DNA of 37,856 nt. It comes from Candidatus Saccharimonadota bacterium (GTDB taxonomy: Bacteria; Patescibacteriota; Saccharimonadia; Saccharimonadales; Saccharimonadaceae). Both the position numbers and the translations under genes were made by a program. The notes below the pieces were generated by a model that was not told where the DNA came from, did not search any database, and was given only the letters and a program-made list of their open reading frames with translations. Position 1 is the stretch's first letter. Every line of letters begins with the position of its first letter. The stretch is taken from the NCBI GenBank assembly GCA_017511965.1, contig JAFWHT010000029.1, forward strand, positions 1-37,856, in the 5' to 3' direction. Below, one piece after another: positions 5,347 through 37,856 of the stretch.

Positions 5347-6042
5347 ATGAGCAAAAAATGGAATGTGTTAGTGGACGAAAATGGTAACGTCAATGCAATC
5401 ACAACCGGTAAGGCTCTGCGACAGTATCAGCGTCAACTTCAGCAACAGGCTAAAAGTAATGCTGAAGCCATTAAGCATTTGCTCCATTTTGTTTTAGTAT
5501 CTGATCTTGAAGATGTAGATTTTGGCGAGTATTTAAAAGATTTCCAGCCGATTTACAAAAATGAAGTTAACGGCATCAACAACTTGGTAACTTTTGCAAG
5601 TAAGGTCGCTAAGGAGCGTGGTATTACTGCTCCGTGTCTCTGTTTCGTTGAACTTGATGGCAAGAAATATGGACTGTCTAGTAAGTATGAAGGTATTATT
5701 GTTTTGAATGCGAAGGTAACTGTTGAAGAAGATTATGAATGGGAATGTTATTCTGATAAGGGAAGCACGCCGTTTGGTTGGGCCCACCCTAGTATCACAG
5801 AGTTTTATAAGAAAGAAGTAAATGAACCCGAGGATTATGATTTTTGCTTGAAGTCCAAGTGTTCGTTAAAAGGCGATGTTCGGTGTGGCATAGAAACTGA
5901 ATCTTTAGGTGGAGGTTATAGAAGTTATTGTCACGATGAAGAATTTGATACTGAAAAATGCGTCGGTTGCGAATTTTATAAAATATGCAACCGTGAACCG
6001 ATAACTGGCACTACATATTACTACATCAAGGCAATGCGTTAG
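5347..6042 (+). CDS. Cysteine-rich C-terminal domain protein, 231 residues
   Basis: No family recognised. The N-terminal half (to about residue 110) is helical and charged with no cysteine cluster. The C-terminal part (about 160-231) has regularly spaced cysteines (CLKSKC, RCGIE, SYCHDEE, CVGCEFYKIC) that look like a zinc or Fe-S binding site. The gene has a strong promoter, an AAAGGGAGG ribosome binding site and a terminator. A truncated second copy of its last 106 codons lies at 9677-9997, in which the main Cys positions are kept. Function unknown; a metal-binding regulatory or nucleic-acid-associated role is conceivable but unproven. Confidence 0.72.
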   Translation: MSKKWNVLVDENGNVNAITTGKALRQYQRQLQQQAKSNAEAIKHLLHFVLVSDLEDVDFGEYLKDFQPIYKNEVNGINNLVTFASKVAKERGITAPCLCFVELDGKKYGLSSKYEGIIVLNAKVTVEEDYEWECYSDKGSTPFGWAHPSITEFYKKEVNEPEDYDFCLKSKCSLKGDVRCGIETESLGGGYRSYCHDEEFDTEKCVGCEFYKICNREPITGTTYYYIKAMR

Positions 6043-9641: not shown

Positions 9642-9670
9642 TTGACAAAATTGTTGAAGTGTGCTATAAT
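9642..9670 (+). promoter_or_regulatory. Promoter now driving a truncated gene copy
   Basis: TTGACA (9642-9647), 17-base spacer, TATAAT (9665-9670) with TGC extension. Homology to the middle of the 5347 gene begins only six bases later, so this promoter has lost its original leader and start codon. Confidence 0.82.
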
Positions 9671-9676
9671 GTATAA

Positions 9677-9997
9677 GTTGAAGATGATTTTGAAAGTGAA
9701 TCTTATTCCGATAAGGGGAGTATACCGTTTGGTTGGGCTCATCCTAGTATTACTAGGGTTTACAAGAAGGAGGTAAATGAACCTGAGGATTACGATTTTT
9801 GTCTAAAGTTTAAATGTTTGTTAAAACATAGTATTAGTTGCCGTATAGTAGGTAAAAGTCTCGGCGGAGGTTATAGTTATTATGATATTGATGAAGAATT
9901 TGATGTTAAAAAATGCGTTGGTTGTGACTTTTATGATATATGTAACTGTGAACCGATGGTTGGTACTACATATTACTACATTAAGGCAATACGTTAG
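9677..9997 (+). pseudogene. 5'-truncated duplicate of the Cys-rich 231-residue gene
   Basis: This frame encodes 106 codons aligning to the last 106 codons of the 5347-6042 gene, without stop or frameshift. It keeps CVGC, the YYYIKA end and most other Cys residues. The first ~124 codons and the ribosome binding site are missing; the homology starts right after a promoter -10. There is no in-frame ATG near the start, so it is probably not translated, although the intact frame shows the deletion is recent or the fragment is under constraint. The post-stop motif and terminator of the parent were copied along with it. Confidence 0.85.
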
Positions 9998-33138: not shown

Positions 33139-34791
33139 ATGAAGAGAGTGATTTTGAGAGTAAGCAAAATATCAACTTTAATTTTGATGCTGGCATTGGG
33201 GTGGCTAGTAGCTAGCACAAAAGCTTGGGGGCTGTCATACTCGCAAGATATTGGGGTATCTTTCACCTTTTCGCCGACGATGAAAATTATATTGTCGGCG
33301 GATGGGTGTGGTATCTCAAATAACGGGCTGTGTATAGACAATTTGGCACCGGGGACATCTTCAGACTCTAACATTCTCACTATTACTGTGCTAAACAACA
33401 CCGGCAATGGCTATACTCTTGGTGCTTCGGTAGGCGATAGCACCGTTAATAGTGGCAGATTTGATACTAGAAATTTGGTTCATAGTAATAGTTCTATCAC
33501 TAGCTCTTTTGCTAGTATAGATACCACAGCAAGCTTAGCCGCCAATACTGACTTAACGGATAATACTTGGGGGTATGCATTTATGGATGAAACAATGAAT
33601 AATCCTACCTGGTCTTCTTACTCGGGTTTACCACTTTACTCTTCAACTGCACCAGCTACCTTGAAGACTTCACTCTCTCCTGCTACTTCTGCTGAAGGAG
33701 ATAAGATTAAATTTAAAATTGCGGCAAAATCAGCCGTCTCCCAATCTTCTGGTGAATACAATAATGTGATTAACTTTACCATCACTGCTCAACCCATTCC
33801 GGTTACGTTATCTATGGCTTATGAGAATGCTGGTAAACAGAAACTAAATGGTTACTATAAACTGCAAGACATGAGCTCGGCTATTTGTGACGCCACGGAA
33901 GTACTAGACGAAGGTAGTCAAACCCAGCTGATAGATGTTCGTGATAATAAGGTTTACTGGGCCACTAAACTCCAAGACGGCAAATGTTGGATGACGCAAA
34001 ACTTGGATTTAAACTTAAGCACAAGTGTGGCGCTAACCAATGCTGATACGGACTTAAATACGGTAGCGAGTTGGACGCCAGCCCGTAGTACTATTAACGC
34101 TGTCACCAACGCCAGCACGGCAGGCTCAATCCAAGGCTACACCAACGACTATAACACCCCGTATTCAGTAGACACAGGAGATTATTATTGGAACAACGCC
34201 ACATTCTACCCATCAGCCAACTGTTCTTACACTGTAGGCGGGGTACAATACCAAGGTTGTAACTACGTGACCAAAGCTGACGCTAATTGGAAAAATTATT
34301 TCTCTACTACACCATATGCAAGCAACGGCACTCACGGCCATGTAGGCAACTACTATAACTGGTCTGCAGCGGTGGCGAGCAACAATACAAGTAGCTATAC
34401 GGCTAGTACGATGGCTAATATCGCCAGCAACCCGCAAAATTCCATCTGCCCGAAGGGGTGGCGCCTCCCAACGGTTTCTAGCCAAACTCCAACTTACAAT
34501 ACAGCTGGTTCACCTAACGAATTCGCGAGATTAGCCGCTTTATATGACAATTATACCGGCAATACTAGCATTAGCAGCGAAGGCCTAGAAAAGGCTCCTG
34601 TTTATATGCCCCGCCCCGGCGACGTTAACGCGGGCGTGCTCAACTACGCTGGCCACAATGAGCGCTATTGGTCCTCTACGGTCTCTAGCGCTACGTTCGC
34701 ACGTAACCTAGGATTCAATTCCACAGTAGTCTACCCCGAGTACGAGGACTACCGCTACAGCGGCTTGTCGCTCCGTTGTGTCGCGCGTTAG
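33139..34791 (+). CDS. Secreted DGR target protein with hypervariable C-terminal FISUMP/C-type-lectin-like domain
   Basis: The 550-residue protein starts with a signal peptide (MKRVILRVSKIST, then the core LILMLALGWLVASTKAWG). Residues about 35-220 are a Ser/Thr/Asn-rich beta domain. Residues about 255-550 resemble the Fibrobacter succinogenes major paralogous domain, a formylglycine-enzyme/C-type-lectin relative: KVYWATKLQDGKCWMTQNLD and NSICPKGWRLPTVSSQTP. The last 57 residues are the DGR variable region, from RPGDVNAGVLNYAGHNERYW to LSLRCVAR. ATG 33139 is chosen over 33091 because it fits both promoter and signal peptide. Such domains present variable side chains for ligand binding; here probably a surface adhesin, by analogy with Mtd and other DGR targets. 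Confidence 0.93.
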   Translation: MKRVILRVSKISTLILMLALGWLVASTKAWGLSYSQDIGVSFTFSPTMKIILSADGCGISNNGLCIDNLAPGTSSDSNILTITVLNNTGNGYTLGASVGDSTVNSGRFDTRNLVHSNSSITSSFASIDTTASLAANTDLTDNTWGYAFMDETMNNPTWSSYSGLPLYSSTAPATLKTSLSPATSAEGDKIKFKIAAKSAVSQSSGEYNNVINFTITAQPIPVTLSMAYENAGKQKLNGYYKLQDMSSAICDATEVLDEGSQTQLIDVRDNKVYWATKLQDGKCWMTQNLDLNLSTSVALTNADTDLNTVASWTPARSTINAVTNASTAGSIQGYTNDYNTPYSVDTGDYYWNNATFYPSANCSYTVGGVQYQGCNYVTKADANWKNYFSTTPYASNGTHGHVGNYYNWSAAVASNNTSSYTASTMANIASNPQNSICPKGWRLPTVSSQTPTYNTAGSPNEFARLAALYDNYTGNTSISSEGLEKAPVYMPRPGDVNAGVLNYAGHNERYWSSTVSSATFARNLGFNSTVVYPEYEDYRYSGLSLRCVAR

Positions 34792-34823
34792 GTCTTTTCT
34801 CTTCCGGCCTCCTGCCATCTCCT
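34608..34823 (+). repeat. DGR variable repeat (VR)
   Basis: 216 bp aligned without gaps to the TR at 35720-35935 (offset 1,112). There are 13 differences. Eleven are at adenines of TR (VR 34621, 34645, 34654, 34663, 34664, 34696, 34732, 34741, 34747, 34750, 34760). The other two, 34767 (T in TR, G here) and 34817 (C in TR, A here), lie 3' of the diversified zone. Ten residues change: N to D, Y, H, R, Y, Y, D, Y and S, and one I to F. The repeat extends 32 bases past the stop codon. Confidence 0.97.
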
Positions 34824-34901: not shown

Positions 34902-34919
34902 GCGCCTCGTAAGAGGCGC
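34902..34919. other. GC-rich hairpin downstream of VR
   Basis: Seven-base stem GCGCCTC/GAGGCGC (34902-34908 with 34913-34919) with GTAA tetraloop, 78 bp after the VR homology ends. No T-run follows on the plus strand; a T-rich tail exists only on the minus strand, where no gene needs terminating. Known DGRs have a GC-rich tetraloop hairpin or cruciform near VR that promotes target recognition, usually closer than this. Confidence 0.5.
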
Positions 34920-35041: not shown

Positions 35042-35230
35042 ATGGATGATATTGCGTTTCCGAAGCATTTAGGAATTGAAGTTGATTCGAAAAAAGAATT
35101 AGTTAGGCTAGTAGAAGAATCAGTAAAAAACGATAGTGGTGTTAGAGTGCCCATGAAAGAAGTTGAGTCTCGCATGAAAAATCGATTTAAACTAGCCAAA
35201 ACAATAGCAAAGGCTAGCGCTAGGTCTTAA
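35042..35230 (+). CDS. Putative antitoxin, 62 residues
   Basis: Small charged protein with a strong AAAGGAG ribosome binding site, directly upstream of and overlapping by one base (TAATG) a ParE/RelE-like toxin. The size and order fit a type II antitoxin, which binds the toxin and often its own promoter. No ribbon-helix-helix or other antitoxin motif is clear; the C-terminal half (about 30-62) is basic and helical. The call rests mainly on context. Confidence 0.6.
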   Translation: MDDIAFPKHLGIEVDSKKELVRLVEESVKNDSGVRVPMKEVESRMKNRFKLAKTIAKASARS

Positions 35231-35529
35231 TGGATTTATATGAAATAAATTTTACAGAAACAGCCATTTACAACCTAGAAGAGATATTTACATATATCTC
35301 TATAGAATTAGAGGACGTATTAGTTGCTGAAAAAGTCGTAAGAGATATTATTAGAAAATGCTATCGTTTGACACTTTTTCCCGAAGCCCATACAGTAAGA
35401 TTTGAGATTGAAAGTAAAAAAATGAGAGTTATTCGTAGTGGTAAATATGTTATTGCATATTCAACTAATAAAAAGTCCCGAACTGTTGATATTGAGTATA
35501 TTGCGCATTCTCGACGTAATGTGATATGA
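35230..35529 (+). CDS. ParE/RelE-superfamily toxin
   Basis: The 99-residue protein has the ParE/RelE pattern: YEINFTETAIYNLEEIFTYI at the start, the LFPEAHTVRF segment in the middle, and MRVIRSGKYVIAYSTNKKS followed by IEYIAHSRRNVI at the end. ParE-type toxins inhibit gyrase and RelE-type toxins cleave mRNA; which applies is not clear. It follows the antitoxin by a one-base overlap. The pair sits between the DGR VR and TR, an unusual place. Confidence 0.85.
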   Translation: MDLYEINFTETAIYNLEEIFTYISIELEDVLVAEKVVRDIIRKCYRLTLFPEAHTVRFEIESKKMRVIRSGKYVIAYSTNKKSRTVDIEYIAHSRRNVI

Positions 35530-35536: not shown

Positions 35537-35935
35537 GAGGATGCTCGCGGTAAACAGAGACGGCTTTTGTAGTCCCTCCCTTTGCCCGGACGAGATCTTC
35601 ACAAAAAAGGAGATGGGATAGATTCACCTTTATTTAGGGTCACTGATGTTTTTTCTGCTAAGGTGGAACAAAACAATAGCAATCTATGAAAACAGGTTCG
35701 GGAGTGTTTTCTTTGCCGGGCCCCGCCCCGGCAACGTTAACGCGGGCGTGCTCAACAACGCTGGCAACAATGAGAACTATTGGTCCTCTACGGTCTCTAG
35801 CGCTACGATCGCACGTAACCTAGGATTCAATTCCACAGTAGTCAACCCCGAGAACGAGAACAACCGCTACAACGGCTTTTCGCTCCGTTGTGTCGCGCGT
35901 TAGGTCTTTTCTCTTCCGGCCTCCTGCCCTCTCCT
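35537..35935 (+). ncRNA. Candidate DGR template RNA
   Basis: Proposed transcript from the extended -10 upstream through TR. DGR template RNA must carry the adenines of TR, so it must be made from the plus strand here, opposite to the reverse transcriptase gene. The 5' part holds GGGAGG (about 35535-35540), which can pair with CCTCCC (about 35575-35580). No protein is convincing in 35530-35719. Ends are inferred. Confidence 0.45.
35720..35935 (+). repeat. DGR template repeat (TR)
   Basis: 216 bp near-identical to VR, in the same orientation as VR. Read in the VR frame it holds 12 AAC codons, 9 of which are changed in VR, plus one changed ATC. The 140-bp zone 35733-35872 has 43 adenines; 11 of these differ in VR, and none of the 97 other bases do. 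The right end touches the reverse transcriptase stop codon. An 85-residue ORF across TR (35646-35903) is a by-product of this frame. Confidence 0.97.
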
Positions 35936-37100
35936 ATTCACGATATTCCCAGCCAAAGTCATCAAAAAGCTTTTTAAGATATTTTTTCGAACTTAGGTGT
36001 TTTGTTAGGCCAAGATAAGAAATAATGGTTTCAATCTCTTTTTTATCATTTACAAATTCTTCAGCGGCGCGATAAAACTTTTTTTGGAGTCGGTCAGAAA
36101 GGTAGAGACTGCGTGGGTAGATTCGAGCGCCAAGGGTTTCGACGCCTTTTTCGACTGGCTGGAAGTAACGTTTTTTGGGATGGAGTTTTAAATCAAGCTC
36201 GTTTTTTAAAAAGTTTTCAATTTTTTTGATGTTCTTTTTTGTTTTTTCGTATTCTTTTTCGGGAGTAATAATAATGAGATCGTCAACGTAGCGGCCATAG
36301 TATTTGATTTTTAAGTCATGTTTTATAAAACGGTCGAGTTTATCGAGATAGATGTTGGAGACGAGCTGAGAGGTGAGATTGCCGATAACGACACCTTTGC
36401 CCTCGGGCTGGGAAAAGAGGGATTTTCGGGGCGGAAGGATATTTGGATGCCAGTTTTTTAGGGGGCCACGCTTTTTGGCAGTTTTGACTGGGTCGTCGAA
36501 GAGAGTTTCGCGCCAGAGATAGAGACAGATTTGATAGATTTTGTAACCGACAGGGTCTTTTTTGTAGAGCTTAAATTGCTGATTTAGTCCCCATTTAACA
36601 TTTTCGAAAAGTTTTTGGCGTGGGAGCGACATAAAATAACCAGAAATGTCAAGCTTGATAGTGTAGGCTTTTTGTTGGCCGTTTTTTGAAGCATGGCGCA
36701 TCATGGTTTGGATGCGTTTAATGCCGAGAAGAGTGCCTTTTTCGTTGCGACAGCTATAAGAATCATAAATAAAATGATTATCCCACCAGCCGGCCTGCAT
36801 GTTGTAGAGAAAATGATGGACAACTCTATCACGAAAGGGCGCGGCAAAAATTTCGCGCACCATCGGGTCGAAAACGATAAAAGTAATTGAAGGGCTGGGA
36901 TGATAGTTTTTATCTAGGATTGAATTTTTGAGACGATTTAGATTTTCGAATTGATTTAATTCAAAATCGTGCTCGTCTCTTGTTTTTCGTTTGCCTTTTC
37001 GGGCTTCGAGATAGGCGAGAAAGAGTTCCTTAAAAAGCCAATTTTCGAAGCTGGTTTGTTTGACGTTTTTGATAGCTTTTTCGATGTCGTAAGGTTTCAT
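35934..37100 (-). CDS. DGR-type reverse transcriptase
   Basis: The 388-residue RT makes mutagenised cDNA from TR RNA. Motifs in order: IFAAPFRDRVVHHFLYN (RT1-2), YTIKLDISGYFMSLPR (motif A with catalytic Asp), GVVIGNLTSQLVSNIYLDKL (the DGR-typical xGxxxSQ motif in place of the QG of retroviral RTs), YGRYVDDLIII (catalytic YVDD) and VETLGARIY. No maturase, endonuclease or integrase domain is present. ATG 37100 is chosen because it overlaps the upstream stop as ATGA and the SQ/YVDD core is complete; the longer frame from 37175 would read through the preceding gene. It stops at the edge of TR. Confidence 0.95.
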   Translation of the reverse strand: MKPYDIEKAIKNVKQTSFENWLFKELFLAYLEARKGKRKTRDEHDFELNQFENLNRLKNSILDKNYHPSPSITFIVFDPMVREIFAAPFRDRVVHHFLYNMQAGWWDNHFIYDSYSCRNEKGTLLGIKRIQTMMRHASKNGQQKAYTIKLDISGYFMSLPRQKLFENVKWGLNQQFKLYKKDPVGYKIYQICLYLWRETLFDDPVKTAKKRGPLKNWHPNILPPRKSLFSQPEGKGVVIGNLTSQLVSNIYLDKLDRFIKHDLKIKYYGRYVDDLIIITPEKEYEKTKKNIKKIENFLKNELDLKLHPKKRYFQPVEKGVETLGARIYPRSLYLSDRLQKKFYRAAEEFVNDKKEIETIISYLGLTKHLSSKKYLKKLFDDFGWEYRE

Positions 37101-37856
37101 TTTAGGCGTTTCTTGAGAAGATTTTTTAGTTCGAGGATTGGGCTGATAACAGAGGAGCTGGTTTCTGCGCCCCAAAGCCTGGTTTCGGAGAGAAGCTGGA
37201 CTTCGTAGATGATTTGGTTGATTTTTTCGAGAAATTCGGCATAGAGCTGGCGGTCGATTTTTGGGGTTTGGTAGTATTTTAGAATAATACTATCGATTAA
37301 ATTAACGAGGCGAGCGCCATTTTGTTGACTGGAGAGTTTGTCGAGTTTGCTCGAGCAAGATTCATGGAGACGGTGAGCGGATTCGATGAGATGAAAATGA
37401 AAAATTGGGTCGGAGAAATTAATTTTGACGAGAGAGCGATTTTCCTCGCGACGTTTTAGCTCCAGGGCTTTTAGATTTAAGAGGTCTTTTTTGGTGAGGT
37501 TTAAATTTAGAGCAAAGGCGTAGCAATGATTTTTTTCTTTGGCATCTTTTAGGAGATTGGCGGATTTGATGCGAGTTTTGATAAGCTCGGGGCTTCGGAG
37601 GCGGATACGACCAAGCTCGTAAGGGTGATAGTAGCTGTCTTGGTCGGATTCGAAATTGACTTTTAGGTTTAGTGCTTCGCAAATTTTGTAGTAGTAGATA
37701 AGAGCAGAATTTTCTGCCATTTCGTACCATCCTTTGTTGCCAGAGCAGGGGATGATAAGGATTTTATTATAGTTGGTTTTTTCGGCGACAATTAATTTGT
37801 CTTTTAATTCCCGATATTTTTCGATTGAAATATCGGGGGGGGGGGGGGGGGGGGGG
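37097..37856 (-). CDS. DGR-linked protein of unknown function, 5' end missing
   Basis: The frame stays open from 37097 past the first ATG at 37720 to the window edge. Upstream of that ATG it reads NYNKILIIPCSGNKGWYEMA, which looks like a buried beta strand and loop, so the true start lies outside. The C-terminal ~110 residues are helical (HFHLIESAHRLHESCSSKLD). It overlaps RT by ATGA, as accessory genes of DGRs often do. The usual partner is Avd, a small four-helix bundle of about 120 residues; this protein is longer and lacks a clear Avd signature, so it may be a divergent Avd fused to another domain or a different accessory factor. Confidence 0.6.
   Translation of the reverse strand, partial: PPPPPPPDISIEKYRELKDKLIVAEKTNYNKILIIPCSGNKGWYEMAENSALIYYYKICEALNLKVNFESDQDSYYHPYELGRIRLRSPELIKTRIKSANLLKDAKEKNHCYAFALNLNLTKKDLLNLKALELKRREENRSLVKINFSDPIFHFHLIESAHRLHESCSSKLDKLSSQQNGARLVNLIDSIILKYYQTPKIDRQLYAEFLEKINQIIYEVQLLSETRLWGAETSSSVISPILELKNLLKKRLK
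37810..37837. repeat. Perfect 10-bp inverted repeat at the window end
   Basis: Arms 37810-37819 and 37828-37837 around an eight-base loop, running directly into the poly-G run. It may be genuine or a fold-back product of sequencing or assembly. Confidence 0.6.
37835..37856 (+). other. Terminal poly-G run (22 G)
   Basis: An unbroken run of 22 G at the end of the window. It would encode poly-proline in the gene crossing it. Most likely a contig-end artefact such as two-colour sequencing dark cycles. Confidence 0.8.

Follow-up and report, generated by a model that had tools for sequence, protein, structure and literature searches.

The difference between template repeat (TR) and variable repeat (VR) at position 34817 of the diversity-generating retroelement (DGR) described here probably marks an IMH-like transfer boundary (IMH, initiation of mutagenic homing) past the stop codon of the target gene, by analogy with known DGRs. 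The only other difference that does not face a template adenine, at 34767, looks like an ordinary mutation of background kind. We put the probability of this whole account, in which 34817 is the boundary where transfer starts after a pyrimidine tract and 34767 is an unrelated point change, at about two in three. Across related cassettes, a hotspot of differences at the place of 34817, a motif flanking it, a difference-free zone upstream of it and VR-type letters common to the VRs of one TR are direct observations.

The window, which is the whole 37,856-nt stretch analysed, belongs to a Saccharibacteria-like genome and carries a DGR: it holds a reverse transcriptase (RT) of DGR kind and a TR/VR pair with differences facing template adenines, and the RT is encoded on the other strand from TR and VR, as in inverted DGRs. 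The target gene (33139..34791, plus strand, 550 aa) has a C-terminal FISUMP domain (NCBIfam TIGR02145, E 1.5e-12, above its cut-off; the match to Pfam PF09603, E 1.8e-4, stays under the curated cut-off). VR1 with its shared post-stop tail (34608..34823, plus strand) occupies the end of this gene, and the predicted model of the VR domain, for which a C-type-lectin-like fold was asked, is weak (pLDDT 31). TR1 lies at 35720..35935 on the plus strand, the mutated side being told by adenine bias. The RT gene (35934..37118, minus strand) is convergent with TR1 and its stop codon abuts the TR end, so that the VR1/TR1 homology ends on the RT stop codon (35934–35936). The RT matches Pfam RVT_1 with E 4.2e-14; its best solved relative is PDB 8ub7 (E 1.5e-30), which we take to be the BPP-1 RT complex, and IGNLTSQL of the window RT aligns to IGSLTSQL in 8ub7, a motif that is presumably the mark of DGR RTs. 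The named RT relatives in one scan were three Candidatus Saccharibacteria contigs, from the gut of goat and roe deer. Upstream of the RT lies a putative accessory gene (37097..37720, minus strand), probably cut short by the contig end and a candidate for an Avd-like protein. A gene at this place is conserved in related loci, where most copies encode 227–332 aa (210 in L056); the window copy has no family match, and its predicted structure, with C-terminal helices, is of low confidence (pLDDT 49). The contig ends in a G run (37838–37856) that is probably an assembly artefact. Between VR1 and TR1, at 35042–35529, there is a small two-gene toxin–antitoxin-like pair, the second gene being ParE (Pfam E 2.6e-10). 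Elsewhere the window has a 300-nt direct repeat (5713–6012 and 9668–9967, 75% identity), and a promoter-like repeat (TTGAC...TATAAT) recurs, in some eight copies, within 2933–26258.

Comparison of VR 34608–34823 with TR 35720–35935 in register (offset 1112, 216 nt) gave 13 mismatches, of which 11 face TR adenines (34621, 34645, 34654, 34663, 34664, 34696, 34732, 34741, 34747, 34750 and 34760). With 44 adenines among the 216 TR bases, this bias corresponds to p = 1.3e-6. The remaining two mismatches are 34767 (TR T, VR G) and 34817 (TR C, VR A), the latter with its TR counterpart at 35929 on the plus strand, the proposed IMH* side. The initial annotation was thus right that these are the only differences away from adenines and that both lie 3′ of the last mutated adenine, an arrangement that by itself arises by chance in about 13% of cases (p = 0.13). 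Beyond the homology, the next mismatch is 34824 (TR A, VR T). The post-stop tail (34792..34823, plus strand), which we propose as the IMH region, is pyrimidine-rich and has no template adenines. Its 32 bases had been described as conserved; 31 of them match TR, because 34817 itself falls within the 32. The stop-codon adenine is indeed unchanged, but this says little about cDNA synthesis that spares it, because the 63-nt block 34761–34823 has one template adenine only, in the stop codon. Upstream adenines were changed at 11 of 43 positions, and at that rate the stop-codon adenine stays unchanged with a chance of about 74%, to which selection on the stop codon adds.

Related cassettes were collected through RT matches, found at E ≤ 1e-3 in 44 of 199 genomes of the family and at E ≤ 1e-60 in 90 of 174 genomes of the genus. 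Many family genomes also gave distant RT matches, often in two pieces (L028–L036 and others, E about 1e-8 to 1e-24), which are perhaps other RT kinds. A search for adenine-biased repeat pairs in 84 loci (the window, 80 regions and three search flanks) found one in 67 and none in 17. Omission of L157, which has no stop, left 66 cassettes, and further omission of L190 (mis-assigned repeat) and of L149 and L162 (near-duplicates of L039 and L161) brought the number to 63. In 52 of these the TR/VR homology continues beyond the stop codon for 15 nt or more; the other 11, with less than 15 nt, stayed outside the hotspot test. Counts by distance zone used 50 cassettes, the gapped L046 and L053 being left out, and the motif search took in 50 cassettes with long enough tails. 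Stop codon or frame is doubtful in L041, L043, L044, L046 and L188, among which L046 alone belongs to the 52.

Post-stop differences in the 52 cassettes number 36, of which 19 are not at template adenines, and all 19 lie 3–9 nt before the homology end (4.2 expected under an even spread, p ≤ 2e-4). A difference of any kind at this place occurs in 25 of the 52 cassettes, and chance extension of the homology past a terminal mismatch gives 1.25. Position 34817, which lies 6 nt before the homology end, stands at this recurrent place; the proposal that the non-adenine differences mark an IMH boundary is supported for 34817 and not for 34767. Resolved by distance in the 50 cassettes, non-adenine differences occupy 19 of 297 sites at 3–10 nt from the homology end and none of 1801 sites at 10–50 nt. 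Because a score defines the homology end, both spacing and counts vary with the mismatch penalty; with penalties from 1 to 5 the hotspot counted 32, 25, 17, 15 and 10 cassettes, and was present at every penalty. In the motif search a CAG-like triplet came out at the end of a pyrimidine tract (log-likelihood 202, versus 155–161 for shuffled sequences), with differences concentrated on the 1–2 nt after the triplet. The window fits this motif in place and tract, and its triplet is GCC, not CAG, which makes the match partial.

It is unlikely that 34817 has nothing to do with homing and arose as a sequence error or through neutral decay at the frayed edge of a duplication. In the window, 34817 is a single difference in one contig, as such an explanation would have it. 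However, a decaying segment should show residual homology past its end and differences scattered ahead of it, whereas TR/VR identity in the 52 cassettes drops to 0.25 immediately beyond the end and the zone upstream is free of non-adenine differences. Moreover, at least five matching bases are kept after the boundary mismatch in 23 of the 52 cassettes, for which the chance is 0.0006 per cassette.

The marking of a boundary at 34817 does not imply that the difference sets the direction of transfer, as the initial annotation had supposed. In 24 of the 52 cassettes there is no post-stop TR/VR difference, and the second TR/VR pair of the window's own genome (TR2 and its VR, on C7) shares 58 identical nt with no post-stop difference. 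From the sequences compared, the difference at the boundary appears to be optional in this lineage, and direction must then rest elsewhere than on IMH mismatches, for instance on diverged flanks.

Error-prone copying reaches past the stop codon at a low rate, as indicated by adenine-only changes there: from the stop codon to the last 10 nt, template adenines changed at 6 of 112 sites and other bases at 0 of 1325 (p = 2e-7). Two findings that the initial annotation named as contrary to its reading, identical 3′ ends of TR and VR in relatives and adenine changes beyond 34767, both occur among the related cassettes, as the 24 of 52 with identical post-stop ends and the changed post-stop adenines show. 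In the 50 cassettes adenine substitution is about 39% at more than 50 nt from the homology end and 12 of 199 at 10–50 nt. This fall follows the coding end and not the hotspot, so constraint on the last residues of the protein explains part of it.

Several VRs may correspond to one TR. In the window's genome (G000), four further gene ends resemble TR1 (VR2, VR3, VR4 and VR5, on C4, C36, C28 and C23), and none of them has post-stop homology to TR. VR2 differs from TR at 14 adenines and 2 other bases, and VR3 at 21 adenines and 3 other bases; both look recently diversified, and so does a tail-less VR of genome G214. VR4 and VR5 share differences at 34770, 34780, 34785, 34788 and 34791, mostly silent. 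VR1, VR2 and VR3 are 98–100% alike over the 92 nt that directly precede the VR, a stretch that TR lacks, and T34686C is common to VR2 and VR3. These likenesses point to exchange between genes, and thus VR2 and VR3 need not be direct targets and may have received their variants by such exchange. In genome G142, one VR lies next to the RT and another on a different contig; the two carry different adenine changes, and both have C at the hotspot where TR has A. In G214, three VRs on three contigs carry AT where TR has CA and have the flank beyond in common, and a fourth VR lacks homology past the stop. The VR-type letters common to several VRs may be shared by descent. No further clear second target with a tail was found in G089, G181, G062, G116 and G249, each searched with one TR of its own.

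Considering these VRs, it might be supposed that the post-stop tail is a relic of the duplication by which VR1 gave rise to TR and has no part in homing, with transfer ending within the coding part. The absence of the tail from VR2–VR5, the recently diversified look of VR2 and VR3 and the fall of adenine changes near the coding end all fit this explanation, which we nevertheless hold to be quite unlikely. Of 63 cassettes from long-diverged species, 52 retain the tail, which is also present in trans VRs of G142 and G214, and past the stop codon, up to the last 10 nt, changes fall on adenines and not on other bases; the variants of VR2 and VR3, in turn, may have come by gene exchange.

Concerning 34767, the base is T in TR and in VR2–VR5 of the same genome and G in VR1 alone. 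Thus the T-to-G difference (34767, plus strand) is private to VR1, where it replaces Phe (TTT in TR) by Leu (TTG). It lies 56 nt from the homology end, and in the 50 cassettes non-adenine differences occur at 8 of 742 sites at 50–70 nt and at 43 of 6223 sites beyond 50 nt, or about one per cassette, which is the background rate; a role as IMH boundary difference is not supported. L155 and L197 also have non-adenine differences at or next to this position, and these were too few to make it a second hotspot. That both differences are IMH/IMH* differences of Bordetella phage kind, setting the direction of transfer as five mismatches in a 21-bp element do in BPP-1 (PMC3240598), is very improbable: both lie 3′ of the last mutated adenine and 34817 is at the recurrent position, but the G of 34767 is absent from VR2–VR5, and the cassettes without a post-stop difference and the empty zone at 10–50 nt speak against it.

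A mechanism for the boundary can be sketched with known DGRs as its basis. The RT would copy TR RNA with errors at adenines, and the error-bearing copy would replace the VR at the end of the gene for the FISUMP surface protein. The segment common to template and target would usually run past the stop codon, through the pyrimidine-rich tract, to the CAG-like triplet, and transfer would most likely start at the end of this tract and triplet. One or two bases just past the start point would not be overwritten, so that TR and VR can differ there, as at 34817, and the 4–8 nt pyrimidine tail beyond would be kept, presumably through recognition by the machinery. The G of 34767 would be a point change inside the copied stretch that is not yet overwritten or has arisen since the last homing. 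More tentatively, and at odds that we place below even, Saccharibacterial DGRs would have a lineage-specific start site, consisting of a tract and CAG-like triplet about 20–75 nt past the stop codon, one or two replaceable bases and a short tail that is retained, and their template would lie in antisense orientation against the RT gene end. VR-like genes that have no site would then gain diversified ends by exchange with a site-bearing gene, so that one homing site feeds the family of FISUMP surface genes.

The closest known counterpart is the IMH of BPP-1, where a 14-bp GC-only element identical to TR, within which the transfer boundary lies, accompanies the 21-bp element with the direction-setting mismatches (PMC3240598). 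As in that system, VR and TR here have a 3′ zone with few differences and, probably, a transfer boundary inside. However, no 14-bp GC-only element of this type is present in 34761–34823, which is pyrimidine-rich with many T; a pyrimidine tract takes its place, with 0–2 differences situated 3–9 nt short of the homology end and mostly beyond the stop codon. Of differences near the 3′ end like those that fix direction in BPP-1, the window has one, at 34817, and nearly half of the 52 cassettes have none past the stop codon. The start of cDNA is put within IMH*, from a spacer adenine, in PMC12875486, and according to the account in PMC4891356 the T. denticola DGR also has a few TR/VR differences. 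Nanoarchaeal DUSEL4 DGRs (IMH TGGGGT, IMH* TGGAAT; PMC4372165) resemble our cassettes in having a short site with a fixed TR/VR difference, but their word pair is fixed, whereas here the letters vary by cassette and the place alone is fixed.

In layout the window resembles the inverted DGRs (DiGReF group 4), whose RT is encoded against the direction of TR and VR (PMC3521204); these inverted DGRs were described there as rare, with three RTs, and as rare also in PMC6642488. Among the 66 analysed cassettes TR is on the strand opposite to the RT in 62, and in 55 of these the TR end lies less than 100 nt from the RT stop codon. DGR clade 2 (Roux et al. 2021; PMC8144416) is confined to Patescibacteria and comprises cellular DGRs of the same phylum; the main text of that paper makes no mention of IMH. 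DGRs, IMH and inverted cassettes are already known, whereas a search of the open-access literature, outside which many subscription papers lie, found no account of a recurrent boundary site past the stop codon in this lineage. Among the sources covered, few systems have a mapped DGR transfer boundary, BPP-1 being the main one. Where the boundary can be located from sequence across dozens of species, it becomes apparent how far copying extends at the 3′ end, likely homing targets can be distinguished from passive paralogues, and the letters to use in a boundary test are specified exactly. Since TR/VR differences are optional in this lineage, its DGRs must take their direction from something besides IMH mismatches.

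Secondary structures at the boundary gave less. A hairpin across the VR homology end was rejected because there is no covariation and junction stems are no commoner (50%) than with flanks swapped between cassettes (49%). VR flanks fold better than TR flanks, and hairpins further down occur in 19 of 52 cassettes on the VR side and 7 of 52 on the TR side (p = 0.012), an excess that is suggestive only, as terminators may account for the hairpins. In the window, the hairpin GCGCCTC-GTAA-GAGGCGC (34902..34919), judged from its sequence, is a possible target hairpin or terminator. In related phage DGRs, hairpins lie 4–34 bp away and have a 4-nt GRNA loop, whereas this GTAA-loop hairpin lies 78 nt past the homology end. 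The idea that the 3′ end of the RT gene doubles as an antisense spacer RNA was set aside, codon identity over the last 20 codons being just 1.15 times the expectation, and no consensus structure was found for this region on an alignment that is poor.

The second DGR cassette of the same genome (L056, G000:C7, 4044–6337) has a TR2/VR pair with 15 adenine and 0 other differences. Its RT matches residues 9–78 and 144–390 of the window RT in two separate pieces, and about 65 core residues are missing or misassembled. The genome gave 45 matches to TIGR02145 and has more than 20 FISUMP-domain genes in 0.7 Mb, many at contig starts, and several of them resemble VR paralogues, of older date, of TR1 or TR2. 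Moreover, three FISUMP genes (L082, L089 and L091, on C4, C29 and C34) have a common 3′ flank (AGAACAAATAAGGTTTTT...GGAGTATAAAATAGATTTGTTATGTTGT) just past the stop codon, which suggests that an element downstream is repeated or that gene ends were exchanged.
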